Part shown: positions 39,515 through 53,945 of the stretch, one piece after another | Position numbering within the stretch: position 1 is the stretch's first letter | Layout of the letters: each line of letters opens with the position of its first letter | Origin: Xanthobacteraceae bacterium 501b | Lineage (GTDB): Bacteria > Pseudomonadota > Alphaproteobacteria > Rhizobiales > Xanthobacteraceae | Length of the DNA: 64,000 nucleotides | NCBI GenBank assembly: GCA_000378025.1 | Contig: KB899087.1 | Coordinates: 3,224,001 to 3,288,000, forward strand | Direction of reading: 5' to 3' | Made by a program: the position numbers and the translations under genes | The notes under the pieces: model-generated | Databases searched by the model: none | Told to the model about the DNA's origin: nothing | What the model saw: the letters and a program-made list of their open reading frames with translations, nothing else

Positions 39515-39714
39515 TCGAGTGGGCGGCTGCAAAGCCACACTCAATGGAATCAAGGGCTAAGCCGTCTCACGTCCATCCGAGCGCAGCATCTCTCCTCATA
39601 ATCTAGAAATGATCCAAATCATTGTGATTGCACGATATTTTTGCTGAACTTAAGAATGCGCAGCCGCTGGAGCACGTGAGGGCGCTCCAAATCTCTCAGG
39701 TTGCGCGACATTTC

Positions 39715-40218
39715 ATGAACGCCCGTACCTTCAACATGGCAAAGCTGTACGAGGCGGAGCACGGCCGGCTTCGCACATTCGTGCGCCGCCTTGTCGGCAA
39801 CCCAGCCACCGCCGACGATCTCGTCCAGCAGGCCTTTGCCAATCTGCTGGGCAAGAGCACGGAGACGGTACCCGAAAGCACCGCCTATATGACCCAGGCG
39901 GTGCGCAACCTGGCCCTCAACCATCTGCGCGACGCGCGCTGGCGTGCCAAGATCGAGATCTCGGGCGTCGAGGTCGAGCATATAGCGGATGCCCGGCCGT
40001 CGCCGGAGATGGCTGCGCTTTACCGCAGCGAGCTGCGCCGGCTGCTCGAAGCCATCGCCCAATTGCCGGCTCGCCGCCGGCAGGCTTTCGTTCTCAACCG
40101 GATTTCCGGCCTGTCCTATGACGAGATCGCGGCGCGCATGGGCATCTCCCGCAACACGGTGATCTCCCAGGTCGTCGCGGCGATGATGGAACTCGATCGC
40201 CGAATTCCGGTGAGATAA
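39715..40218 (+). CDS. FecI-type ECF sigma factor, module 1
   Basis: 167 aa from the ATG at 39715 (a TTG at 39628 would add 29 residues that do not look like the family). Sigma region 2: LRTFVRRLVGNPATADDLVQ; region 4: QLPARRRQAFVLNRISGLSY, DEIAARMGISRNTVISQVV. FecI-type factors direct RNA polymerase to the promoter of a TonB-dependent receptor when the receptor's signalling domain tells FecR that substrate is bound. Its fecR partner follows 120 bp downstream, not overlapping. Confidence 0.9.
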   Translation: MNARTFNMAKLYEAEHGRLRTFVRRLVGNPATADDLVQQAFANLLGKSTETVPESTAYMTQAVRNLALNHLRDARWRAKIEISGVEVEHIADARPSPEMAALYRSELRRLLEAIAQLPARRRQAFVLNRISGLSYDEIAARMGISRNTVISQVVAAMMELDRRIPVR

Positions 40219-40259: not shown

Positions 40260-40338
40260 AGACATGAGAGGGACGTTGCGTCGGGACTCTGCCGGTCATG
40301 GCCGTTCCGGCAGCATCCAAGGCACGCACAGAGTGAAC

Positions 40339-41268
40339 ATGCAGGATTACGCGACCGATCCGGCCTATCTGGAAGCGCTGGAATGGTTCGTCCTGATGAA
40401 GGATGAAGAGGTCGGCGACGCCGAACGCAAAGCCTTTGTTGAGTGGCTGGCGGCCGATCCATCGCATGTCGCCGCCTATGATCGCGCGCGCGCCTTGTGG
40501 GATCGCTTCGAGATCGTGAAGCCGGAATATGACCGCCTGCATCGGGCGGGGCGTATCGGCCGTCGCAGCGCGCTGCTAGGCGGCCTGGCCGCGCTCGTTG
40601 CCGCGCCGGCATTCTACATGCTCACCCGGCCGGGCGCATTCGCCGACTACTCAACCGGAGCGGCCGAACGGTTCACTGCAACGCTACCTGATGGCAGCAC
40701 GGTCGAGCTCGGCAGCTATTCTGCTTTGTCGCTCGACTTCACGCCGGAGCAGCGCCGGCTCGTCCTGCATCGCGGGCAGGCCTTCTTCCACGTGGCGACC
40801 GAACCGGCACGGCCTTTTGTCGTTCAGGCCGATGGGGGCACGATCCAGGCGCTCGGCACGGCGTTCGACGTAAAGATCGCGATGGATCAGGTCATCGTCA
40901 CCGTCATCGAACATTCCGTGAAAGTTCACGCGGCTCACACATCACCCGTCGTGCTCGAGGCCGGCTGGCAACTCAGCTATGGCAACAACGGAGTACGACC
41001 GCCGGTGCGCGCCGATCTTGCCGCAGTACAAGCCTGGCGGCAGGATCGCCTCATCGTCGAGGACGTGCCCCTTCGTCAGGTCCTGACCGAGTTGGAACGC
41101 TACCGGCGAGGTCGCATCGTGCTGATGGACAATGCAATCGGGGACATCCCGGTAACGGCGGTTTTCAATACCCAGCACACTGACAAGGCCCTTCAGGTCA
41201 TTGCCGAAACCCTGCCGGTCCAGGTGCTGAACGCTTATGGTTATCTCACCCTCGTTTATCCGAAGTGA
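40339..41268 (+). CDS. FecR-family anti-sigma regulator, module 1
   Basis: 309 aa from the ATG at 40339. A cytoplasmic N-terminus binds the sigma factor (AFVEWLAADPSHVAAYDRAR), one membrane segment follows after RRSALLGGLAALVAAPAFYM (about 78-98), then the periplasmic FecR domain (LPDGSTVELGSYSALSLDF, RGQAFFHVATEPARPFVV, VIEHSVKV). The C-terminal STN-like part (LTELERYRRGRIVLMD) contacts the receptor. Confidence 0.9.
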   Translation: MQDYATDPAYLEALEWFVLMKDEEVGDAERKAFVEWLAADPSHVAAYDRARALWDRFEIVKPEYDRLHRAGRIGRRSALLGGLAALVAAPAFYMLTRPGAFADYSTGAAERFTATLPDGSTVELGSYSALSLDFTPEQRRLVLHRGQAFFHVATEPARPFVVQADGGTIQALGTAFDVKIAMDQVIVTVIEHSVKVHAAHTSPVVLEAGWQLSYGNNGVRPPVRADLAAVQAWRQDRLIVEDVPLRQVLTELERYRRGRIVLMDNAIGDIPVTAVFNTQHTDKALQVIAETLPVQVLNAYGYLTLVYPK

Positions 41269-41413: not shown

Positions 41414-44400
41414 ATGCAGACCGGACAGCCACTGGAGCTAATGCGGGATACGACCGGCCCCCACAAGCAAGCGATCAAAGCGGGACAAAAATCCTCGCTC
41501 CTGCTGCTCCTGCTGATGACGACCGCCCTCGCGGCTCCTTCTTCGCACATGTCGCCTGCCAATGCGCAGGCGATCCCGACCCCCGCCTCTGTTGAACCGA
41601 TATCCTACGATATTCCTGCCCAGCCGCTGTCGAGGGCGCTGGTCGCGTTCTCGAAAGCGACCGGCTCGGAGCTTTTCTTCGATGCGACCCTCGTTCGTGA
41701 AAAAACCTCGCCGGGCGCTCGCGGCCGCCTTACGCGAGAGGAGGCGCTCGGACGCATTCTCGCAGGTGCGGGGCTGACCTATCGCATCAGCGGCAACGCC
41801 GTGATCATCTCGGAAGTGAGCGCTGCGGTAGATGGCACCCTTAGCGCCGACGGCGCGATCGAGCTCGGCACGATCGATGTCACCGGCGCCGGCTCTCCCG
41901 CCGACTTGCCCTTCGAGACGCCGGGCTCGACCAATTTCATTTCCGGCCAGGAACTGGAGCGTTTCCCCGGCCTCACCTCCGGCTCGATGTTCCAGGGCAC
42001 GCCGGGCGTGATCTCGGGCTCCAGCAATAACGGCGCCGCCATCGACCCCAACATCCGCGGCCTGCAGGGCATGAACCGCGTCGCCACCACCATCGACGGT
42101 TCGCAGCAATCCACCTCCACCTATCGCGGCTATGCCGGCGTCGACAACCGCACCTATGTCGACCCGGACCTCATTTCCGGCATCACCGTCACCAAAGGGC
42201 CGGACGGTAGTGTCGGCGGGGCCATCGGCGGCACCATCGCCATGGAAACGCTGAACGTCGACGACATTCTCAAGGCCGGCGAACGTTGGGGCGTACGGGT
42301 GCGCGCGGGGCTCAACACCAATTCGGTGGCGCCTGTCATCGACCAGACCTCGGCGGTGTTCGGTGGCGGCGACGGGGCGGACCTCACCAATGGCAGCTTC
42401 GCCGTCGCGGTGCGCGAAGACAATGTGGACCTGGTCGGCGCCTTCGTGCGCCGCAAGACCGGCAATTACTTTGCCGGCACGGAAGGCTCTCTCACCACCA
42501 CCGACTATCTCGGCGAACAGGCTTCCCTGTCGAAATACGGCCATGGCCAGCTCGTCTACAACACCTCAGAGGACGTGACCTCGGCGCTGCTCAAGACCAC
42601 CCTGCGCCCCACCGACGAGCAGGAACTGCAGATCGGTTATCTCTATTACGGCAACGATTTCGGCGAGGTCTCCCCTTCCGCGGTTGCCGCCACCACCGGC
42701 GTGACATGGCAGCTCCCGCTGAGTTCGGTCGAGGTCAGCCAGGTGACAGCACGCTATCACTTCAACCCGGAGGATAACGATCTCGTTGACTTCCGCCTGA
42801 ACAGCTACTTTTCAAATGTAGATGAGACTAACGTCTTCGCCCTGCTGGGAGAATCCGGGACTATCCAGCAGCAATCAAAGAATGTGGGTGTCAGCGCGAG
42901 CAACGTGTCCCGCCTGTCCTTGCTGGGGGCGCCCCTGTCCCTCGAATATGGCGGTTCCTACACATATGAACGGGCAACACCGAGCGCCGGGACGGAAATC
43001 CTGAGTGGCTATCCCCGTTGGGCGATGGCGGCGGATGGCGAACGCCAGGTGTCGACGCTCAACGCCAGCGCGACCTGGGAGCCGTTCTCCTGGCTCGAGC
43101 TGGAAGCCGGCCTCGAATACATCTCCTATGAAACGACCTTCCTCGGCACCCTGCAGTATGATTACGAAGGGCCTGACTATACCGGCTATTCCGGCAGCGG
43201 CGTGAGCCCAAGCGCCAGCGTGATGGTGACGCCGCTTCCCGGCTGGCAGCTCTATGCGCAATACCAGAGCGGCATCCGCCCGCTCAGCGTGCGCGAGGTC
43301 AGCCAGACGCGCTTTGAGCAGGTTTTCAACCCGGACCTTGAAGCCGAAGAAGCCAGCAACTGGGAATTCGTCACGAATTTCCTGAAGAGTGATTGGCTGC
43401 AGGAAGGCGACAAGGCACGACTAAAGATTGCCTATTTCGATAATACAACAAATAACTATGTTGGTCGTTCTTATGAAAATTCCGATATGGTATTTTTCAA
43501 CTACGACTATGTGCGCTTCAAGGGCATCGAAATCTCGGGTGGCTACGATGCCGGCTGGGGGTTCGTCGATTTCGGCTTCAACTATTACACCGGCTTCGAG
43601 TCCTGCCTGAAGAACGGCCAGTGCCAGGACTACACCCTTCAGGCCGACTATCTCACCAACCAGATCCCGCCCGACTTCACCGCGTCGATCACCGCTGGCC
43701 TGCGGTTCATGGACGATCGCCTCACCGTCGGTGGCCGCCTGACCTATATGGGTCAGCGCCTCGCGCCTTCGATCGAGGATGAGAGCTACTTCTGGGTCAC
43801 AAGGCTATGGGAGCCCTACACCGTCGTCGACCTGTTCGGGCAATGGAAGATCAACGATGCGCTGACCCTTGACGTGAGCGTGCAGAACCTTTTGGACGCC
43901 TATTATGTGGACGCTCTCAACAACACGGATATGCCGGCTCCCGGCCGCGTGATCCGCGGCACGCTGACGGCGAAGCTCGGCAGTTCGGAGCCGGCGAAGG
44001 CGCCGACCTTCGGCCTCCCGCCGCGGTCGGAAAGCACCCCGTGGACCGGGTTCTATGCGGGTGGCCATTTTGGCTACGGCTTCGGCCAGATCGAGGGAAA
44101 CACGACGCTCGGCGACGGCACGGCCAACTTCATTGCCGCCACTGAATCGGCGGACCAGAACCCGTCCAACATGTTGGGCGGCGCGCAAGTGGGCTTCAAT
44201 TACCAGCTGTCCAACGGCTTTGTCTTCGGCGTGGAGGCCGACTATTCCTGGATGAACATGGTCGACTATCGCAACGCCTTCGCCACGGAAGGACAAAAGC
44301 TCATCGACAACCACCAGCTCCAGGCGCGCACCGACTACAGCTTCGACTGGCTGGCCACCATTCGCGGCCGTGTTGGATACGCCTGGGACCGGTTGTTCGT

Positions 44401-44842
44401 CTATGGCACGGGTGGTGTCGCCTTCCTGCAGGAGACCGAGACCCGCACGCAGTACCGCTCGTCGGCCGCCACTGCCGATCTGCCTGCCTGGCGGACCACT
44501 GACACCTTCTTTGTCGAATCCGCCAGTGCGACACGGACCGGTTTCGCCGTGGGCGGTGGCGCCGAATATGCTTTGTCGAACAATTGGTCGCTGAAGCTTG
44601 AGTACCTCTTTGCAGGCTTCGGTGCCACGGACTTTCTGTTCAAGAATGCGCGTGCCGGTGTCACCAAGAGCTACACAGTAACCACCAGATGCACCCGGTC
44701 CAACACGACCCCTCCCTGCCGGGGTATTCGTGAAAACGTGAATACCACATACCCTGGAACATCCGAGACCGTGAACGGCCGCGAGGCGTCCAACGACGCC
44801 GACCTGCAGATGCTGAAGATCGGCCTCAACTACCGCTTCTGA
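41414..44842 (+). CDS. TonB-dependent receptor fused to Omp25/31-like barrel, module 1
   Basis: 1142 aa. Signal region to about 52; STN signalling domain about 65-133 (YDIPAQPLSRALVAFSKATG); TonB-box-like IDVTG at 154; plug about 165-280 (NIRGLQGMNRVATTIDGSQQ, GITVTKGPDG); 22-strand barrel to about 857. The TonB-dependent part ends normally (DMPAPGRVIRGTLTAKLG), yet the frame goes on: from 876 WTGFYAGGHFGYGFG begins an Omp25/31-like 8-strand barrel ending LQMLKIGLNYRF. Two Cys lie in its last loop. The substrate is probably an iron or heme complex (C-x5-C loop ESCLKNGQC), by inference. Regulated by the sigma/anti-sigma pair upstream. Confidence 0.88.
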   Translation: MQTGQPLELMRDTTGPHKQAIKAGQKSSLLLLLLMTTALAAPSSHMSPANAQAIPTPASVEPISYDIPAQPLSRALVAFSKATGSELFFDATLVREKTSPGARGRLTREEALGRILAGAGLTYRISGNAVIISEVSAAVDGTLSADGAIELGTIDVTGAGSPADLPFETPGSTNFISGQELERFPGLTSGSMFQGTPGVISGSSNNGAAIDPNIRGLQGMNRVATTIDGSQQSTSTYRGYAGVDNRTYVDPDLISGITVTKGPDGSVGGAIGGTIAMETLNVDDILKAGERWGVRVRAGLNTNSVAPVIDQTSAVFGGGDGADLTNGSFAVAVREDNVDLVGAFVRRKTGNYFAGTEGSLTTTDYLGEQASLSKYGHGQLVYNTSEDVTSALLKTTLRPTDEQELQIGYLYYGNDFGEVSPSAVAATTGVTWQLPLSSVEVSQVTARYHFNPEDNDLVDFRLNSYFSNVDETNVFALLGESGTIQQQSKNVGVSASNVSRLSLLGAPLSLEYGGSYTYERATPSAGTEILSGYPRWAMAADGERQVSTLNASATWEPFSWLELEAGLEYISYETTFLGTLQYDYEGPDYTGYSGSGVSPSASVMVTPLPGWQLYAQYQSGIRPLSVREVSQTRFEQVFNPDLEAEEASNWEFVTNFLKSDWLQEGDKARLKIAYFDNTTNNYVGRSYENSDMVFFNYDYVRFKGIEISGGYDAGWGFVDFGFNYYTGFESCLKNGQCQDYTLQADYLTNQIPPDFTASITAGLRFMDDRLTVGGRLTYMGQRLAPSIEDESYFWVTRLWEPYTVVDLFGQWKINDALTLDVSVQNLLDAYYVDALNNTDMPAPGRVIRGTLTAKLGSSEPAKAPTFGLPPRSESTPWTGFYAGGHFGYGFGQIEGNTTLGDGTANFIAATESADQNPSNMLGGAQVGFNYQLSNGFVFGVEADYSWMNMVDYRNAFATEGQKLIDNHQLQARTDYSFDWLATIRGRVGYAWDRLFVYGTGGVAFLQETETRTQYRSSAATADLPAWRTTDTFFVESASATRTGFAVGGGAEYALSNNWSLKLEYLFAGFGATDFLFKNARAGVTKSYTVTTRCTRSNTTPPCRGIRENVNTTYPGTSETVNGREASNDADLQMLKIGLNYRF

Positions 44843-45435
44843 GCGCGGCGGTGCTCCCAAGGCCGCGGCCGCATCGTGCCCGCGAACTGGCCGGAGACTG
44901 AGGTCAAGCGGTGCAGGCAGCTTCGCCTGCGCCGCCGCCTTCGGCGCGTGTCGAAATGGGTAGCAGCGTCGCCCGCCAGCACTGTCGAGCGCCAGCAGCA
45001 AGGAGAGGATCGTGTTGCGAACGTCGCCGCCGCACGTCTCCAGGGCCGCGTCGATATCAGCCTCGCCAATGACGGGCTCAAGGGTCTGAGGGGCGTGGGA
45101 TTCGGGTAGCTTCAGCGACACGCGGCGCGAAGGTCGAGCCTCGCCTCTGACGGTTCTGATGCGGAAGAGCGAGGAACCACGGCTCGGGCGTCGAATCCGT
45201 CCCTTGCGGCGCCGTCCCTGGGCCGCTTGCGGGTGCCGACGCGGGCGGCGCACCTTTTATCTATAATCACTCTAATTCATTGATGTTGCGTCGTAATTCC
45301 GATTGTTTAAGGCTATCGGGGCTTTCTTTCTGCGATCCTCCTGCGCCGGCGATGAGCGGCGCCGGCCGTTTTCGGTGACAGCCTTGGCCCCAAGCGCGAC
45401 ATCACACTGCCCAATGCCAGTCTCCGCCATCGCCC
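44843..45435. other. Intergenic stretch with a possible degenerate ORF
   Basis: 593 bp between receptor 1 and the second sigma gene. On the minus strand from a GTG at 45121, PESHAPQTLEPVIGEADIDA and ALETCGGDVRNTILSLLLAL look protein-like for about 60 codons, then the frame becomes Arg/Ala-rich. It may be a gene remnant. The AT-rich part at 45255-45315 probably holds the promoter of sigma factor 2. Confidence 0.35.
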
Positions 45436-45966
45436 GTGCCGGCGGGGGCGCCTGTGAGTAGCGCGCTCAATATCTGGCTGGGTGATCTCTACCGGCGGCA
45501 TCATCGCGATCTCGTGCGCTTCGCCGCCCGGCTGGTGGGCGATCGCGACGGCGGCGAGGAGGTAGTGCAGAACGCCTATCTCAGGCTCGCCGGGCGCCCC
45601 GCCCAGGCGGTGGCGATCGAGCACCCCAAGACCTATGCCTTCGCCGCCACCCGCACCGCCGCTATCGATTTTACCGCCCGGCGCCATGCCGAATGGCTCC
45701 ACCGGGTCGATATCGAGGAAATCGACGCGCTCGCGGCCGGCGGCGCTATCGATGGCGCCCTCCACCACCGGCGGCGCATCGTCCGGCTCGCCGTGCTGCT
45801 GAACGAGCTGCCATCGGCCTGCCAGACGGCCTTCGTGATGAACAAGCTGGAGGGGCGGGGCCACCGCGAAATAGCGGCGCATCTCGGCGTGTCGGTCAGC
45901 ATGGTGGAGAAGCACATCCTGCGCGCGCTGATGCACTGCCGCAACCTGATGCGCGATGATGACTGA
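45436..45966 (+). CDS. FecI-type ECF sigma factor, module 2
   Basis: 176 aa from a GTG at 45436 (or GTG at 45454). Region 2: YRRHHRDLVRFAARLVGDRD, GGEEVVQNAYLRLAG; region 4: LNELPSACQTAFVMNKLEGR, HREIAAHLGVSVSMVEKHIL. Clearly a different FecI paralogue from the one at 39715, close to the FecI consensus. Confidence 0.92.
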   Translation: MPAGAPVSSALNIWLGDLYRRHHRDLVRFAARLVGDRDGGEEVVQNAYLRLAGRPAQAVAIEHPKTYAFAATRTAAIDFTARRHAEWLHRVDIEEIDALAAGGAIDGALHHRRRIVRLAVLLNELPSACQTAFVMNKLEGRGHREIAAHLGVSVSMVEKHILRALMHCRNLMRDDD

Positions 45967-45977
45967 GGCGCGAGCAT

Positions 45978-46005
45978 TGAGGATTTTGCGCCCGGCGGCC
46001 GTCTA
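45978..46005 (+). promoter_or_regulatory. ECF promoter candidate, module 2 (before fecR)
   Basis: TGAGGATTT - 12 bp - CCGTCTA, then ATGAG 5 bp on. Matches 47056-47083 in both boxes and gap. Shares only GTCTA and the trailing GAG with module 1. Confidence 0.65.
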
Positions 46006-46047
46006 TAAGGATGAGCCCTTCCCTCATTCCGGTGCGAGAAGCCCCGC

Positions 46048-47031
46048 GTGACGCCGCCGATCCATCGCCCTGCCCATCCGCCCCGCGCCTTGTCCGACGA
46101 AGCGCTGGCTTTCATCGTGCGCCTGCATTCCGGCGAGGCGCAGCCGGCCACCCTGGCTGCCTTCGCCGCCTGGCGACGGCTCAGCGCAGACCATGAGGCT
46201 GCCGCGCGCGAGGCCGAGCAGCTCTGGGGCGATGCCTCGGAACTGCATCAGGATGCGCGCAGCGGCCTCATCCGCCCTGGGTCGGGCCGACGTACCGGCC
46301 CGACCCAGGGCCTCTCGCGACGCGCCCTGCTGGGCGGCGCCGCCGGACTTGCTGTCGCGGGCGCGGGGGGCGCATGGCTGGCGGGCAGGCTGGGGCCGCG
46401 CGCGGATATCGCGACCGGCACCGGCGAGGTGAGGACGGTCACGCTGGCCGATCGCTCGCGCGTCACGTTGAACGCCCGCAGCGCCATCGCCCTCGATCTC
46501 AGCCCCGCCCATCGCCATGTCCGGCTGCTTGAAGGACAGGCCTTTTTCCAGGTGGCGGCCGACCCCGCACGCCCGTTCGAGGTGACGGCGGGGGCGGGCC
46601 GGCTGCAGGCGCTGGGCACCGCCTTCGATGTCGACGCCAATCGCGGCGACGGCTCGCTGGCGGTGAGCGTGGTCGAACATGCGGTGCGGGTCGCGGGCGC
46701 GAGCGAACTGACGCTGCAGGCGGGCGAGCGCGTCCGGATCGCCCCGGATGGCCGGCTCGGACCGGTCACACTCCAGCCGGCGGACATCACCCTCGCCTGG
46801 CGCTCGGGGCTGTATATCGCCGAGGACCGCCCGCTCGCCGACATCATCGCCGCGCTGCGCCCCTACCATGCCGGGTGGATCCTCGCCCGTGGATCGGGCA
46901 TCGACGGGCTGCGGGTCAATGCGGTGCTGGATCTGCGCACCCCTGAGGCCTCACTCGCAGCCCTCGCCCAGGGCCTGCCGATCCGGGTGATGGCGCTCTC
47001 CCCCTTCCTCACCATCGTCTCGGCAGCGTGA
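46048..47031 (+). CDS. FecR-family anti-sigma regulator, module 2
   Basis: 327 aa from a GTG. AFAAWRRLSADHEAAAREAE at the N-terminus; one membrane segment after RRALLGGAAGLAVAGAGGAW (about 90-112); FecR domain VTLADRSRVTLNARSAIAL, EGQAFFQVAADPARPFEV, VVEHAVRV; C-terminal DIIAALRPYHAGWILARG. Pairs with the sigma factor just upstream and the receptor just downstream. Confidence 0.92.
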   Translation: MTPPIHRPAHPPRALSDEALAFIVRLHSGEAQPATLAAFAAWRRLSADHEAAAREAEQLWGDASELHQDARSGLIRPGSGRRTGPTQGLSRRALLGGAAGLAVAGAGGAWLAGRLGPRADIATGTGEVRTVTLADRSRVTLNARSAIALDLSPAHRHVRLLEGQAFFQVAADPARPFEVTAGAGRLQALGTAFDVDANRGDGSLAVSVVEHAVRVAGASELTLQAGERVRIAPDGRLGPVTLQPADITLAWRSGLYIAEDRPLADIIAALRPYHAGWILARGSGIDGLRVNAVLDLRTPEASLAALAQGLPIRVMALSPFLTIVSAA

Positions 47032-47055
47032 GGATAAATTTTTTCCGAACCGCGC

Positions 47056-47083
47056 TGAGGATTTCCGCGCCGCGCCCCGTCTT
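47056..47083 (+). promoter_or_regulatory. ECF promoter candidate, module 2 (before receptor)
   Basis: TGAGGATTT - 12 bp - CCGTCTT, then GCGAG 5 bp on. Same boxes and gap as 45978-46005. It places the receptor start at 47145 and rules out the frame's first start at 47028. Confidence 0.65.
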
Positions 47084-47144
47084 AGCCAGCGAGGGACCAG
47101 ACGACCCAGCAGGGCACGTCCCTCCTCACGCGAGCGGAGACGGG

Positions 47145-50100
47145 ATGATGGTGGGCTTCAAGGGGCGGACGGGACTTCTGCGGGCATGGCTGGTGGCAAC
47201 AACCATGCTGGTGCCTTTGCCCCTTGCCAGCGCGCAGGCGCAGCAGGCGAGCGCGGCGCGGAACAGCTTCGATATTCCGGCCCAGCCGCTCGGCGCGGCG
47301 CTGACCGCCTTCGCCCGCCAGACCGGCATCACATTCGCCTATCCCGCCGCGCTCACCGCCGGGCGAACCTCGCCGGCGCTGCGCGGCAGCTTTTCGCACG
47401 AAGAAGCGCTGGCCCGGCTGCTGGGCGGCAGCGGGCTGGCCTATGCCTTCACCAGCCCGACCCGCGTGACCATCTCGGCGCCGCTGTCGGGCGGCACGGA
47501 GGCGGCAGCTGACGGCGCGATCGAGCTCGGCACGATCGATGTCACCGGCGCCGGCGCGGCGGCCGACCTGCCCTTCGAGACGACAGGCTCCACCAACTAC
47601 ATCTCCTCCGAGGAAATCGAGCGCTTCCCGCCGCAGACCGCCGGCGCGCTGTTCCAGGGCACGCCCGGCGTCATTTCCGGCGGCGGCAATAACGGCGCCT
47701 CGATCGACCCGAACATTCGCGGCCTGCAGGGCCAGAACCGCGTCGCCACCACGATCGACGGTTCCCAGCAGTCGACCTCCTCCTATCGCGGCTATGCCGG
47801 CGTCGACAGCCGCACCTATGTCGACCCCGACCTCATTTCCGGCATCACCATCACCAAGGGGCCGGACGGCGCGGTGGCCGGCGCCATCGGCGGCACCATC
47901 GCCATGGAGACGCTGAACGTCGAGGACATCCTCAAGGCCGGCGAGCGCTGGGGCGTACGGGTGCGCGGTGGGCTCGCCACCAACTCGGTCGCCCCGGTGA
48001 TTGGCGAGACGGCGGCGGTGTTTGGCGGCGGCGATGGCGCGGCCATCACCAATGGCAGCTTCGCCCTCGCCGTGCGCGAGGACAATGTGGACCTCGTCGG
48101 CGCCTTTGTGCGGCGGAAGACGGGCAACTACTTTGCCGGCACGGAAGGTTCGCTCACCACCACCGACTATCTCGGCGAGCAGGTTGGCCTGTCGAATTAC
48201 GGCCATGGCCAGCTGGTCTACAACACCTCCGAGGACGTGACCTCGGCGCTGCTGAAGGCCACGTTCCGCCCGACCGACGAGCAGGAATTGCAGATCGGCT
48301 ATCTCTATTACGGCAACGAATTCGGCGAGATTTCGCCCTCGGCGATCAATGTCGGCACCAATGTGACCTTCCAGATTCCGCTCAGCTCCGTCACCATCAA
48401 CCAGGTAACGGCGCGTTATCACTACGACCCCACGGACAACGACCTCGTCGACTTCAAGGTCAATGCCTATCTCTCCAACACCGACGAGAGCAATGTGTTC
48501 GCCGTTCTGGGCACGACGCCCGAACTTCAGCAGCAATCGCAGAATGTCGGGGTGAATGCGAGCAACACCTCGCATTTCATGGTGAAGGACACCCCGCTCG
48601 ACCTCACCCTCGGCGGTTCCTTCACCTATGAGGACGCCGAGCCCGTTTCCGTCGACGCCTGGGCCGACACGACGTGGTGGGCCATTCCGGCGGATGGCGA
48701 CCGCACGATCGGCTCGCTGTTCGCCCGAGTAAACTGGGAGCCGACCTCCTGGCTCGCCTTGGCGGCGGGGGTCGAATACCTCTCCTATGAGACCAATTTC
48801 AACGGCACGACCTATTACGCCACCGACGAACCCTTCGCCGGCTATTCCGGCGACGGCTTCAGCCCGAGCGCCAGCATCACGGTGACGCCGCTGGAGGGCT
48901 GGCAGATCTACGGCCAGTACCAGAGCGGCATCCGCCCGCCCAGCGTGCGCGAGACCAGCCAGACCCGTGCCGACCAGGTGTTCACCAGCGATCTCGACGC
49001 GGAACAGGCGAGCAACTGGGAAGTGGGCACCAATTTCCTGCGCGACAACCTGTTCATGGAAGGCGACAAGGCGCGGCTGAAGCTGGCCTATTTCGACAAC
49101 ACCACGAATAACTATATCGGCCGCACCTATGACGGTAGGCTAGGCTTGTTCAATTACGACTATGTCCGGTTCAAGGGCTTCGAGATTTCCGGCCGCTACG
49201 ATGCCGGGCCGATTTTCACCGAGTTCGGGTTCAACTATTACACCGACTATGAAGCCTGCCTTGATGACGGCACCTGCCTCGACTACACGCTGCCGGCGGA
49301 TTACCTGACCAACCAGATCCCGCCGCAGTTCACCGCCTCCTTCACCGCCGGCGCCCGGCTGTTCGACGACCGCGTGACCATTGGCGGCCGCGTCACCTAT
49401 ATGGGCGAGCGCCTCGCCCCCGTGGTGGATGACGGTTCCTATTTCGTCACCACCAAGCTGTGGGAGCCCTACACCACGGTCGATGCCTTCGTGCAGTGGA
49501 AGATGAACGAGAACCTCACCCTCGACATCAGCGCTCTGAACATCCTCGACGCCTATTATGTCGACGCGCTCAACAACACCGACATGCCGGCGCCCGGCCG
49601 CACCATCACCGCCACCCTGACCGGTCGCTTCGGCAGCGGCGAGAAGCTCGCCCCGCTCCCGCTCGGCCTGCGGCTGAACAGCGAGGCCTGGACCGGCCTC
49701 TATGCCGGCGCCTCCTTCGGCTATGGCTTCGCCTCCATCAGCGGCACCACCACGCTGGCGGACGGCACGGCGAACGATATCGCGGCGACAGAATCGGCCG
49801 ATGAATCGCTCGACGGCATGCTCGGGGGCGGGCAGATAGGCTATAATTACCAGCTCCGCAACGGCATCGTGCTCGGCGTCGAGGCGGATTTCAGCTGGCT
49901 GAGCCAGAAGGCCACGCATGCGGCGATGGCCACCGAGGCGCAGATCCTCATCGACAACGAGATGTGGCAGGCCAAAACCGACTATTCCCTCGAATGGCTC
50001 TCCACCATCCGCGGCAAGGCCGGCTACGCCCTCAACGACCGGCTGTTCGTCTACGGCACCGGCGGCGTCGCCTTCCTGCGCGAGAGCGAGCAGCGCTCGC

Positions 50101-50498
50101 AATACATCGCCACCACGTCAGGGGCGAGCGTGCCGAACGGGCATACCACCACGCTCTTCTTCACCGAGGCGGCCGGCGCGACCCGCACCGGCTTCGCCGT
50201 GGGCGGCGGCGCCGAATATGCGCTCTCCGACCGCTGGTCGCTGAAGATGGACTATCTCTTCACCGGCTTCGGTTCCGAGAGCTTCCTCTTCCCCAACGCC
50301 CGGGCCGGCGTCGGCAAATCCTACACCGTGACGACGCGGTGTACGCGAAACCCGACGCCGATGCCGCCCTGCCCCGGCGGGTGGGCCGGCACCATCACCC
50401 AGAACTTCACCGGCAGTTCCGAGACGGTGAACGGCCGCGAGGCCTCCAACTCGGCTGACCTGCAAATGCTGAAGATCGGCCTCAATTACCGCTTCTGA
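47145..50498 (+). CDS. TonB-dependent receptor fused to Omp25/31-like barrel, module 2
   Basis: 1117 aa from the ATG at 47145. Signal peptide to SAQAQ; STN domain (FDIPAQPLGAALTAFARQTG); IDVTG; plug (NIRGLQGQNRVATTIDGSQQ); long barrel with C-x5-C loop EACLDDGTC; then from about residue 848 AWTGLYAGASFGYGFA starts the fused 8-strand Omp barrel ending LQMLKIGLNYRF. The same layout and much of the same sequence as the module 1 receptor, including the last-loop Cys pair (TTRCTR, then PPCPG). The differences cluster in the surface loops of the barrel, as expected of receptors with different ligands. Confidence 0.9.
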   Translation: MMVGFKGRTGLLRAWLVATTMLVPLPLASAQAQQASAARNSFDIPAQPLGAALTAFARQTGITFAYPAALTAGRTSPALRGSFSHEEALARLLGGSGLAYAFTSPTRVTISAPLSGGTEAAADGAIELGTIDVTGAGAAADLPFETTGSTNYISSEEIERFPPQTAGALFQGTPGVISGGGNNGASIDPNIRGLQGQNRVATTIDGSQQSTSSYRGYAGVDSRTYVDPDLISGITITKGPDGAVAGAIGGTIAMETLNVEDILKAGERWGVRVRGGLATNSVAPVIGETAAVFGGGDGAAITNGSFALAVREDNVDLVGAFVRRKTGNYFAGTEGSLTTTDYLGEQVGLSNYGHGQLVYNTSEDVTSALLKATFRPTDEQELQIGYLYYGNEFGEISPSAINVGTNVTFQIPLSSVTINQVTARYHYDPTDNDLVDFKVNAYLSNTDESNVFAVLGTTPELQQQSQNVGVNASNTSHFMVKDTPLDLTLGGSFTYEDAEPVSVDAWADTTWWAIPADGDRTIGSLFARVNWEPTSWLALAAGVEYLSYETNFNGTTYYATDEPFAGYSGDGFSPSASITVTPLEGWQIYGQYQSGIRPPSVRETSQTRADQVFTSDLDAEQASNWEVGTNFLRDNLFMEGDKARLKLAYFDNTTNNYIGRTYDGRLGLFNYDYVRFKGFEISGRYDAGPIFTEFGFNYYTDYEACLDDGTCLDYTLPADYLTNQIPPQFTASFTAGARLFDDRVTIGGRVTYMGERLAPVVDDGSYFVTTKLWEPYTTVDAFVQWKMNENLTLDISALNILDAYYVDALNNTDMPAPGRTITATLTGRFGSGEKLAPLPLGLRLNSEAWTGLYAGASFGYGFASISGTTTLADGTANDIAATESADESLDGMLGGGQIGYNYQLRNGIVLGVEADFSWLSQKATHAAMATEAQILIDNEMWQAKTDYSLEWLSTIRGKAGYALNDRLFVYGTGGVAFLRESEQRSQYIATTSGASVPNGHTTTLFFTEAAGATRTGFAVGGGAEYALSDRWSLKMDYLFTGFGSESFLFPNARAGVGKSYTVTTRCTRNPTPMPPCPGGWAGTITQNFTGSSETVNGREASNSADLQMLKIGLNYRF

Positions 50499-50546: not shown

Positions 50547-50618
50547 CGCGCGGCGGGGAGAGGAACATGCGCGCCATGTGAGGCGTTGCGCCCGGGGTAT
50601 CTCAACGGGAGCGCGCGC

Positions 50619-52286
50619 GTGATCACCGACCTCTGGTACAAGAACGCCATCGTCTATTGTCTCTCCGTCGAAGGCTTCATGGATTCGAACGGCGATGGCG
50701 TCGGCGACTTCCGCGGCCTGATGCGGCGGCTTGATTACCTGCACGGGCTCGGCGTCACCGCCATCTGGCTGATGCCGTTCCAGGCCTCCCCCGGGAAGGA
50801 TGACGGCTATGACGTCGCCGATTATTACGGCGTCGATCCGCGCTACGGCACGCTGGGCGATTTCGTCGAGTTCACCCACGCCGCCCGGCAGCGCGGCATG
50901 CGGGTGCTGATCGACCTCGTGGTGAACCACACCTCGAACCAGCATCCCTGGTTCAAATCCGCCCGCTCCGACCCGGATTCACCGTACCGCGATTGGTATG
51001 TCTGGTCGACGACCAAGCCGAAGAATGCCAATGAGGGCATGGTGTTTCCCGGCGTGCAGAAGACCACCTGGACCTATGACAAGGCGGCTAAGGAATATTA
51101 TTTCCACCGCTTCTACGACTTCCAGCCTGACCTCAACACCGCCAACCCCGACGTGCAGGCGGAGATCCTGCGCATCATGGGGTTCTGGCTGGAACTCGGC
51201 GTCTCCGGCTTCCGCATGGACGCCGTGCCCTTCGTCATCGCCGAGAAGGGCGCCGACATCGACGGTAAGCCGATCGAGCATTTCAACATGCTGCGCACCT
51301 TCCGCGAATTCCTGCAGTGGCGGCGGGGCGACGCCATCATCCTGGCGGAGGCGAACATTCTTCCCGAGGACGACAAGAAGTATTTCGGCGAAGACGGCGA
51401 CCGCATGCACATGATGTTCAACTTCCAGGTCAACCAGTCGCTGTTCTACGCCCTGGCCAGCGCCGACATGAAGCCGCTGGTGAAGGCGCTGAACGCGACA
51501 AGGCCGGACTATGCGACGGCGCAATGGGGCCTGTTCCTGCGCAATCATGACGAGCTCGACCTCGGCCGGCTGACGCCGGCGCAGCGCGAGCAGGTGTTCC
51601 AGGCGTTCGGGCCGGACAAATCGATGCAGCTCTATGATCGCGGCATCCGCCGCCGGCTCGCGCCGATGCTGAAGGGCGACCGCCGCATGATGGAGCTGGC
51701 CTACAGCCTCATGCTGTCGCTGCCCGGCACGCCGGTGCTGCGCTATGGCGACGAGATTGGCATGGGCGACGATCTCGGCCTGCCCGAGCGCTATTGCGCC
51801 CGCACGCCGATGCAATGGTCGAACGAGCCGCAGGGCGGCTTCAGCGCGGCGGAGAAGACCTATCTGCCCGTTATCTCCGAGGGGGCCTATGGCTTTGAGC
51901 AGGTGAACGTCGCCGACCAGCGCCGCGACCCACAATCCTTCCTCAACTGGATGGAACGGATGATCCGCACCCGCCAGGAGACGCAGGAAATCGGCTGGGG
52001 CGCTTTCGAGATCGTCGATGTCGGCCACGACGCGGTGCTGTGCCTGCGCTATGAGTGGCGCAACAATGTCGCCGTGTTCCTGCACAATTTCCACCCCGAG
52101 GGGCTGAGCGTGCAGTTCAAGCTCACGCCGCCGGAAGGCGAGCCGAACCGCCTTGTGAACCTGCTGTCGGACAGCCACAGCGAGGCGGACGGCAAGGGCC
52201 GGCACGCCATCACGCTCGAACCCTATGGCTACCGCTGGTTCCGCATGGGCGGTCTCGACTACGCCTTCCGCCGCACAGAACTTTAG
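50619..52286 (+). CDS. GH13 enzyme, trehalose-synthase-like
   Basis: 555 aa from a GTG at 50619. GH13 regions: DLVVNHTSNQHPWF (I), GFRMDAVPF (II, nucleophile Asp), ILAEANILPED (III, Glu), LRNHDELDLG (IV, Asp). The AEAN-x-x-PED and RNHDELDL forms are those of maltose alpha-D-glucosyltransferase (TreS), which interconverts maltose and trehalose. Somewhat short for TreS, so a related glucosyltransferase is possible. No signal peptide, so cytoplasmic. Confidence 0.85.
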   Translation: MITDLWYKNAIVYCLSVEGFMDSNGDGVGDFRGLMRRLDYLHGLGVTAIWLMPFQASPGKDDGYDVADYYGVDPRYGTLGDFVEFTHAARQRGMRVLIDLVVNHTSNQHPWFKSARSDPDSPYRDWYVWSTTKPKNANEGMVFPGVQKTTWTYDKAAKEYYFHRFYDFQPDLNTANPDVQAEILRIMGFWLELGVSGFRMDAVPFVIAEKGADIDGKPIEHFNMLRTFREFLQWRRGDAIILAEANILPEDDKKYFGEDGDRMHMMFNFQVNQSLFYALASADMKPLVKALNATRPDYATAQWGLFLRNHDELDLGRLTPAQREQVFQAFGPDKSMQLYDRGIRRRLAPMLKGDRRMMELAYSLMLSLPGTPVLRYGDEIGMGDDLGLPERYCARTPMQWSNEPQGGFSAAEKTYLPVISEGAYGFEQVNVADQRRDPQSFLNWMERMIRTRQETQEIGWGAFEIVDVGHDAVLCLRYEWRNNVAVFLHNFHPEGLSVQFKLTPPEGEPNRLVNLLSDSHSEADGKGRHAITLEPYGYRWFRMGGLDYAFRRTEL

Positions 52287-52340: not shown

Positions 52341-53945
52341 TCAAAGCCGGGCGTCGAGCGCGACGATGACGCCTTCATGGGGCCGCAGGGAAAGGTGGCC
52401 CTCCACCCTCTCCTCGCGCGGGCGGTCAGGCTCGGTGGAGAGAAGCACCCGCCCTTGGGTGCCGGGCGGCAGCGGGATGTCGTCCTGCACGGTGCCCGCG
52501 AGATTCAGCGCCACCAGCACGCATTCCTCGGCGCTCTCACGCAGGAACACCAGCACATCGCCCAGCGCGGTGATCTTGCGATAGGTGCCGGCATGCAGCA
52601 CCGGATGGGCGCGGCGCAGGGCGATCAGGTCGCGATAGAGCCCGAGCAGCGAGGCGGGCTGTTCCAGCTGGACGGCGACGTTGCGCGTGGTGAAGTCGGC
52701 CGCCAGCGGCAGCCAGGGCCGGCCATTGGTGAAGCCGGCATTGGGCGAGGCGTCCCACTGCATCGGCGTGCGCTCGGGATCGCGGCCAAGGCCGAGCCCC
52801 GGCTCGTTCTTCTCCCAGGGGTCGTGAGCATCCTCGGTGGCGATCGGCACATTCTCCATGCCGATCTCGTCGCCATAATACATGGTCGGCGTGCCACGCA
52901 GGGTGAGCAGCAGCATGGCCGCGACCCGGGCGCGGCGGGCACCGATGCGCGAGGCGATGCGCGGCTGGTCGTGATTGCCCAGCACCCAGTTCGGCCAGCC
53001 ACCTTCCGGCACCGCCGCGTCATAGTCGGCGATCAGCTCGGCGAGGCGAGGCGCGCTCCAGCTGGCGTGGATCAATTGGAAATTGAACGGCAGATGGGCG
53101 CCTTCGAGATTCTCGCCGTAATAGGCGACCAGCCGATCGATCGGCAGGTAGATCTCGCCGATCAGCACCCGGTCCTCATATTCGTCGATCACAGCGCGCA
53201 GCTCGGCGATGATCGCATGCACGTCCGGCTGGTCGGTGGAGCGGGTCTGCAGGAAGCGGCGGATATCGGCGTCGCCCGGCCCATATTCCGGGTTGGGCGG
53301 GTTGTCGCGGAAATTGGCGTCCTTCATCAGGTGCCAGATCACATCGACCCGAAAGCCATCGACGCCGCGCGCCATCCAGAAGCGCAGCACGTCGTGCATC
53401 GCGGCGCGCACCTGCGGGTTGCGCCAGTTCAGGTCCGGCTGCTGCGTCAGGAAGGCGTGGTAATAATATTGCCCGCTGGCGGGGTCATAGGTCCAGGCCG
53501 GCCCGCCGAAATTGCTCATCCAGTTGTTCGGCGGCCCGCCATCGGGCGCGGGGTCGCGCCAGATGTACCAGTCGCGCCGGGGATTTTCGCGCGAGGCGCG
53601 GCTCTCAGCGAACCACGGGTGCTGGTCCGACGTGTGGTTCGGTACGAAATCGAGCACGATCTTGAGCCGGCGGGCATGCGCCTCCTCGATCAGCCGATCA
53701 AAGGCGTCGAGGTCGCCGAACATCGGGTCGATGCCGCAATAATCCGCGACGTCATAGCCGAAATCGGCCATGGGCGAGGGGAAGATCGGCGAGATCCAGA
53801 CCGCGTCGATGCCGAGCGCGACCAGATAATCGAGCCGGGCGCGAATGCCATCGAGATCGCCGATGCCATCGCCATTCGTGTCCTGAAATGAGCGGGGATA
53901 GACCTGATAGAAGATCCCGCGCTGCCACCATTGTGTCTGCGCCAT
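52341..53945 (-). CDS. GH13 alpha-glucosidase
   Basis: 534 aa. YPRSFQDTNGDGIGDLDGI near the start; DFVPNHTSDQHPWF, GFRVDVIW (nucleophile Asp), IGEIYLP (Glu), LGNHDQPR (Asp). Of the oligo-1,6-glucosidase/alpha-glucosidase type acting on short maltose- or isomaltose-like oligosaccharides. The order behind the LLM oxidoreductase (21-bp gap) suggests cotranscription. Confidence 0.9.
   Translation of the reverse strand: MAQTQWWQRGIFYQVYPRSFQDTNGDGIGDLDGIRARLDYLVALGIDAVWISPIFPSPMADFGYDVADYCGIDPMFGDLDAFDRLIEEAHARRLKIVLDFVPNHTSDQHPWFAESRASRENPRRDWYIWRDPAPDGGPPNNWMSNFGGPAWTYDPASGQYYYHAFLTQQPDLNWRNPQVRAAMHDVLRFWMARGVDGFRVDVIWHLMKDANFRDNPPNPEYGPGDADIRRFLQTRSTDQPDVHAIIAELRAVIDEYEDRVLIGEIYLPIDRLVAYYGENLEGAHLPFNFQLIHASWSAPRLAELIADYDAAVPEGGWPNWVLGNHDQPRIASRIGARRARVAAMLLLTLRGTPTMYYGDEIGMENVPIATEDAHDPWEKNEPGLGLGRDPERTPMQWDASPNAGFTNGRPWLPLAADFTTRNVAVQLEQPASLLGLYRDLIALRRAHPVLHAGTYRKITALGDVLVFLRESAEECVLVALNLAGTVQDDIPLPPGTQGRVLLSTEPDRPREERVEGHLSLRPHEGVIVALDARL

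Follow-up and report, generated by a model that had tools for sequence, protein, structure and literature searches.

Two tandem receptor genes in the window (the whole 64,000-nucleotide stretch of DNA that was analysed) encode chains that run past the end of a TonB-dependent barrel into what looks like an Omp25/31-type barrel. The locus thus raises the question of whether one polypeptide carries two outer-membrane barrels, how the second barrel came to be attached, and what it might do for the receptor.

Domain organisation of the window receptors

Each receptor gene is the third member of a unit that begins with genes for an ECF sigma factor and a FecR-type regulator (Table 1). Both receptor frames are open throughout, without an internal stop. 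STN (PF07660), Plug (PF07715), TonB barrel (PF00593) and OMP_b-brl (PF13505) domains are all found in both chains above the Pfam cut-offs, the scores for PF13505 being 47.2 and 51.8 bits against a cut-off of 28.7. The sequence-only reading, in which a TonB barrel continues without a stop into an Omp-type tail, is borne out by these matches. The C-terminal end of receptors A and B is LQMLKIGLNYRF. The presence of the STN, plug and TonB_dep_Rec domains in one chain, with the sigma and FecR genes adjacent, identifies the window receptors as TonB-dependent transporters with surface signalling. A third fused paralogue, accompanied by sigma and FecR genes of its own, lies elsewhere in the same genome (L009:3534-6953). 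The three receptors align over their full length, and B shares 66 and 67% identity with the other two.

Table 1. Features of the two sigma-FecR-receptor units in the window
Feature	Position	Strand	Domains, residues and remarks
ECF sigma factor, FecI type, first unit	39628..40218	+	PF08281 2.1e-16, PF04542 6.7e-12
FecR-type anti-sigma regulator, first unit	40264..41268	+	PF04773 8.7e-20, PF16220 1.7e-12
Fused receptor A, 1142 aa	41414..44842	+	STN 87-133, plug 168-274, TonB-dependent barrel to ~855, linker, OMP_b-brl tail
Linker of receptor A, residues 856-876	43979..44041	+	
Predicted tail barrel of receptor A, W877-F1142	44042..44839	+	PF13505; alignment to B
Cys1093 ... Cys1102, last loop of tail A	44690..44719	+	
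ECF sigma factor, second unit	45436..45966	+	PF08281 6e-14
FecR-type regulator, second unit	46048..47031	+	PF04773 7.6e-22; 4-base overlap with receptor ORF
Fused receptor B, 1156 aa	47028..50498	+	STN 102-151, plug 184-290, barrel to F868, linker, tail
Linker of receptor B, residues 869-887	49632..49688	+	
Predicted 8-stranded tail barrel of receptor B, W888-F1156	49689..50495	+	
Cys1105 ... Cys1115, loop L4 of tail B	50340..50372	+	

Two alpha-amylase-family genes, assigned by Pfam, adjoin the second unit (50586-52286 and 52341-53945). The ORF following the Ancylobacter rudongensis copy of the receptor (L022:9547-11247) has the same length and start as the first of them. A weak OMP_b-brl match is also present in the window's genome within a 7724-aa open frame (G000:C1:796084-796551).

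The position of the domain boundary is given by tail-less homologues, which are present in the host order and family. In 25 of 26 of them the chain ends on the F of the last receptor strand. One tail-less protein close to the fused receptors (L127:4320-7097, genome G600) ends in TTTLGGE, three residues beyond the usual last F, and no tail remnant was found at this locus by tblastn. In the fused proteins (n=42), this last strand leads into a linker of 18-28 residues, or 20-30 when counting starts two residues earlier, after which the tail opens with a WTG-type strand. The tail of B, modelled alone, is predicted to form an 8-stranded barrel similar to OmpA and NspA (pLDDT 82), and not the extended loop that the structure prediction might have returned. 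This predicted barrel has a long outer loop, L4, with the Cys pair between two extra strands. Both the OMP_b-brl score above the cut-off and the predicted fold of tail B assign the tail to the 8-stranded barrels. The earlier suggestion of two barrels per chain is thus supported, the chain probably consisting of a full TonB-dependent barrel, recognised by homology, and then a separate OMP_b-brl barrel, recognised by prediction. A full-length AlphaFold2 model made from 8 sequences (pLDDT 36.5, pTM 0.30) is too poor to give the orientation of the barrels.

All 42 tails end on F. The Cys pair in the last loop, which had been thought to be a shared feature, is present in both window receptors and is not family-wide: at least two Cys occur within the last 75 residues in 27 of the 42 members. 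Upon comparison with 42 stand-alone homologues, 19 positions were found to be at least 85% conserved in the tails and less than 35% in the homologues, most of them toward the outer half of the barrel. Among the tail-specific residues, R1023, Q1025 and R1137 occur in 42/42 tails, and E922, E970, E1047 and R1053 in 39-41 of 42. Judging by strand parity, R1023, Q1025, E1047, R1053 and R1137 would point into the barrel. The dN/dS ratio of the tail is 0.09-0.36 for 10 pairs, that is, below 1 and above the value of the receptor in 10/10.

The stand-alone homologues were taken from the host order and IMG/VR, and an additional alignment (A7) contains 55 of 58 listed stand-alone ORFs and 6 fused tails. 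Three scans of IMG/VR for tail-like barrels gave no match, 5 loci and 71 loci, the loci being used in the tail model; scans of IMG/VR with the receptor found no relative. One 559-aa ORF has two OMP_b-brl barrels in tandem (L174:1375-3054, genome G322), and these barrels make up two of the 42 rows of the stand-alone comparison.

Distribution and descent of the tail

Using a profile that spans the last receptor strand and the tail (A2), the fusion was found in 29 of 296 genomes of the host family, representing 11 of 47 genera, and in 10 of 30 genomes of the genus. Order-wide it occurs in 3/397 genomes, one of them outside the host family, and class-wide in 1/289, which is the window's own genome. 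These scans scored only their best candidates, with E limits of 1e-38 to 1e-40, and distant cases may be missed. The host-family matches lie within frames of at least 885 aa in 44 of 48 cases. The other four comprise two in G002, one of which starts from base 2 of its contig, one near a contig end in G080, and one in G177 that is split across two ORFs. The nearest named relative is A. rudongensis, at 93% in the best segment. The fusion is a conserved family, and the earlier statement that it is not a one-off reading error is confirmed by this distribution together with the third paralogue.

The set of 42 members excludes repeats of other loci (L022-L025, L089 and L090) and exact duplicates (L087 and L088), as well as proteins shorter than 1090 aa: L026 and L027, at contig ends, L043, L056 (883 aa) and the split L086. 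Split HasR-like receptors, each in two overlapping ORFs, were observed at L098:15403-18007, L086:1498-5093 and L275:5613-8334.

The possibility that such a tail is ordinarily a separate gene was also considered. No complete stand-alone gene for it was found in the 296 family genomes at E<=1e-40, and the tail profile has no match in the loci of tail-less receptors at 1e-6. A tblastn search of 30 loci with 42 tails at 1e-3, in which three fused loci served as a positive control, detected no separate tail gene near the tail-less receptors.

The 42 fused tails form one clade, with a support of 100, against the 42 stand-alone homologues. The tree was calculated without L123, a near-copy of L122, and the search profile, made from fused tails, may have biased the sampling. 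The receptor parts of the same proteins are not one clade: 6 changes are needed, at least 3 of them by starred branches, and a tree in which the fused receptors are forced together is rejected (delta lnL 711, p-AU 1.1e-5). Because the tails are one clade while the receptor parts are not, the pattern fits a tail that behaves as a movable module between receptor lineages. The ratio of tail to receptor divergence is 1.27-1.51 within receptor clades and 0.91-0.96 between them. The lower tail divergence between clades would favour transfer, and saturation may contribute to it. One ancestral fusion followed by repeated loss is the alternative history.

A different TonB-dependent receptor, L168:10-2337 in genome G052 (Pfam barrel 2e-22), also has a C-terminal OMP_b-brl domain (2e-17). 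This protein suggests that the joining of a TonB receptor to an OMP_b-brl barrel occurred more than once.

The receptor part and its gene neighbourhood

The closest solved structure to receptor B is HasR (PDB 3csl, 1e-51 in two stretches; PDB 5c58, 1.6e-51). The match to 5c58 covers residues 68-860 of 1156, i.e. the whole receptor part. The TIGR01785 TonB-hemin model is matched up to position 674 (A) and 677 (B) of 677; the matches end at residues 852 and 868, before the start of the tails at W877 and W888. Their scores, 289.9 and 316.5 bits, are both below the curated cut-off of 316.85. According to passages of PMC6981324, the heme histidines of HasR are residues 189 and 603. The position of His189 is occupied by Tyr256 in 68/68 receptors, fused and unfused, and the region around His603 has no His conserved across the 68 receptors. 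Because these two histidines are not conserved, the proteins should be called HasR-like and not HasR. Two further Cys residues, 744 and 750 in receptor B numbering (window 49257-49277), form an invariant pair within the receptor part, present in 42/42 fused and 26/26 unfused receptors.

The genes for an ECF sigma factor and FecR are directly upstream of 34/34 distinct fused receptors that were checked (of 42) and of 25/26 tail-less receptors, none being seen at L136. Downstream coverage is about 10 kb in 20 stretches and 1.5 kb in the others, so that the counts of neighbours are lower bounds. At one fused locus, L094, the genes are arranged in the order sigma, FecR, receptor, HasA-like protein, ABC exporter, HlyD, heme oxygenase, ExbB, ExbD and TonB. 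HasA-like genes lie beside at least four fused receptors, with ABC exporter genes at the same four loci; HlyD was found at L094, and ORFs homologous to its ExbB/ExbD/TonB genes at L106, L108 and L109. Heme oxygenase occurs at no fewer than 10 fused loci, two of them with cut or split receptors and 7 Pfam-checked, and at 11 of 20 unfused loci of the order.

The HasA-like assignment was made by profile. Compared with the PDB, the profile finds HasA at E 1.4e-9 with the L025 domains and 4e-6 without them, and in both cases the 12 top-ranked rows are HasA. RTX proteins had appeared as the PDB match of a HasA-like query; this was due to RTX repeats included in the query, and repeat-free profiles lead to HasA. 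When single HasA-like ORFs were compared with Pfam HasA, four gave no match at E<=0.1, five more gave none, and the L094 domain gave 0.28; the two L025 domains match at 5e-5 and 8e-4, under the cut-off. These two domains are part of a 1286-aa RTX/cadherin-type protein (L025:9075-12935), whose gene neighbours those of a fused receptor and an ABC exporter.

A six-row HasA-like profile matches 8 of 169 family genomes. Five further HasA-like loci, from 7 such genomes, all have the sigma and FecR genes and a tail-less HasR-like receptor, which at L275 is split. Because all five have tail-less receptors, a has-type system can do without the tail. In the window's genome the six-row profile finds no HasA-like gene, and PF06438 (HasA) has no match there, in a search in which no positive control matched either. 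One L025 HasA-like domain matched nothing in 30 genus genomes, in a search run without a positive control. No heme genes of this type were seen adjoining the window pair. The one heme oxygenase found with PF01126 in the window's genome lies about 80 kb from the pair, beside another receptor; this locus (L274:6790-12585) includes, with the TonB receptor, genes for ABC uptake (FecCD and Peripla_BP_2). Taken over all loci, the neighbourhoods link the receptor family to heme acquisition, with the tail as an optional addition.

Possible roles of the tail and comparison with known systems

Two systems offer a precedent for a small outer-membrane protein working with a heme receptor. Passages of PMC3483173 state that the Bartonella Hbp proteins do not transport heme and enhance uptake by HemR in E. 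coli; a similar effect with HasR in E. coli is given there as data not shown, and the step by which heme passes from Hbp to the receptor "remains unknown" according to the authors. Brucella Omp31 is described in parts of PMC9728373 as hemin-binding (citing Delpino 2006) and about 32% identical to HbpA. Because a heme-type receptor and a barrel of the general kind of Hbp and Omp31 share one chain, capture in cis is suggested by analogy. The reading preferred here, held tentatively at somewhat under an even chance, is that an Omp25/31-like barrel is held in cis and feeds a HasR-like, TonB-driven signalling transporter for heme. The tail may in this way be a heme-catching surface protein permanently joined to the transporter that it feeds. 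Further points in favour are the domain content, the match to HasR, the sigma and FecR genes upstream, the heme-related genes at loci of relatives, and the predicted fold, low dN/dS and tail-specific conserved residues of the tail.

The two barrels would be inserted side by side in the outer membrane, with the long loops of the tail outward. At the cell surface the tail would capture heme, or a carrier of it, and so make it locally more concentrated for the adjacent receptor. The receptor would import the heme via TonB and signal from STN through FecR to the ECF sigma factor, increasing its own expression. From general topology, each barrel is expected to have its start and its end at the periplasmic face; side-by-side insertion is favoured for this reason, and the earlier idea of the tail as a lid is unlikely. 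A more far-reaching version, a two-barrel heme machine in which heme is handed between neighbouring barrels and the catching barrel has moved among receptor lineages within one family, is doubtful, if possible. Evidence against reading the window receptors in terms of heme is the absence of the HasR heme histidines, the lack of a HasA-like match in the window's genome and the distance of the heme oxygenase. Also against the preferred reading are the weak matches of single HasA-like ORFs to Pfam HasA, the tail-less receptors of the five further HasA-like loci and the poor full-length model.

Small 8-stranded barrels often serve structural roles, and on this general ground the tail might instead be an anchor or assembly platform, for oligomers, outer-membrane islands or LPS binding, that captures no ligand. 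The higher dN/dS of the tail in every pair is as expected for a barrel that has no fixed ligand. However, the tail-specific conserved residues are mainly toward the outer half, and Pfam shows no extra peptidoglycan-binding domain in either window protein, which leaves the anchor a serious candidate and still an unlikely one. The tail might also dock a protein partner, such as the bacterium's own or a foreign hemophore or another hemoprotein, as an extension of the loops with which HasR holds HasA. The HasA-like genes adjoining four fused receptors and the long predicted loop L4 with its Cys pair and extra strands are in line with docking, but such genes also adjoin the tail-less receptors of all five further loci and were not found in the window's genome, making it distinctly improbable. 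It is less probable again that the tail is a passenger, a harmless fusion carried by drift: the fusion is lineage-restricted and relatives without it are common, but the tail's dN/dS is well below 1, its terminal F is invariant, and it is spread over 11 genera and several receptor clades. An artefact, or a single large barrel with an extended loop, can practically be dismissed, there being no support for it against the third genome copy, the long frames of 44 of the 48 family matches, the ends of the tail-less homologues and the separate barrel predicted for the tail.

With receptor and barrel paired naturally in one chain, and tail-less relatives as natural controls, the heme transfer step becomes directly testable. 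The fused receptors are also a test case for the folding of two barrels from a chain with an internal end-strand, and for the movement of barrels between receptors as modules.

Proteins with more than one barrel per chain have reportedly been described by Solan et al. in 2021 (PNAS), combinations with 8-stranded barrels being said to be common. This work is cited in passages of PMC8592465 and PMC11494523. Multi-barrel outer-membrane proteins are thus already known, and a TonB signalling receptor with an 8-stranded barrel would be a variant of them, differing in that one of its barrels is a TonB-driven signalling transporter. Among the literature matches listed, none describes such a fusion in its title or the opening of its abstract, which is not a claim that it is absent from print.

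The fused receptors share the STN signalling domain, plug and TonB barrel of HasR of Serratia marcescens (PDB 3csl), which is itself under sigma and anti-sigma control according to a passage of PMC3984077. Unlike HasR, they carry an additional, predicted 8-stranded barrel, have an invariant Tyr in place of His189 and no conserved His near 603, and in the window's genome were not found to be accompanied by a HasA-like gene. With surface signalling of the FecA/FecR/FecI type they have in common an STN receptor and FecR and ECF sigma genes upstream, whereas a second barrel on the receptor is present only in the fused proteins. Bartonella Hbp and Brucella Omp31, like the tail as proposed here, are outer-membrane proteins proposed to concentrate heme for a TonB-dependent heme receptor (passages of PMC3483173). 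Omp31 belongs to the Omp25/31 family (PMC9728373, in part), with which the tails share the general kind of barrel. Hbp and Omp31 are separate proteins that act in trans, whereas here the barrel lies within the receptor chain.
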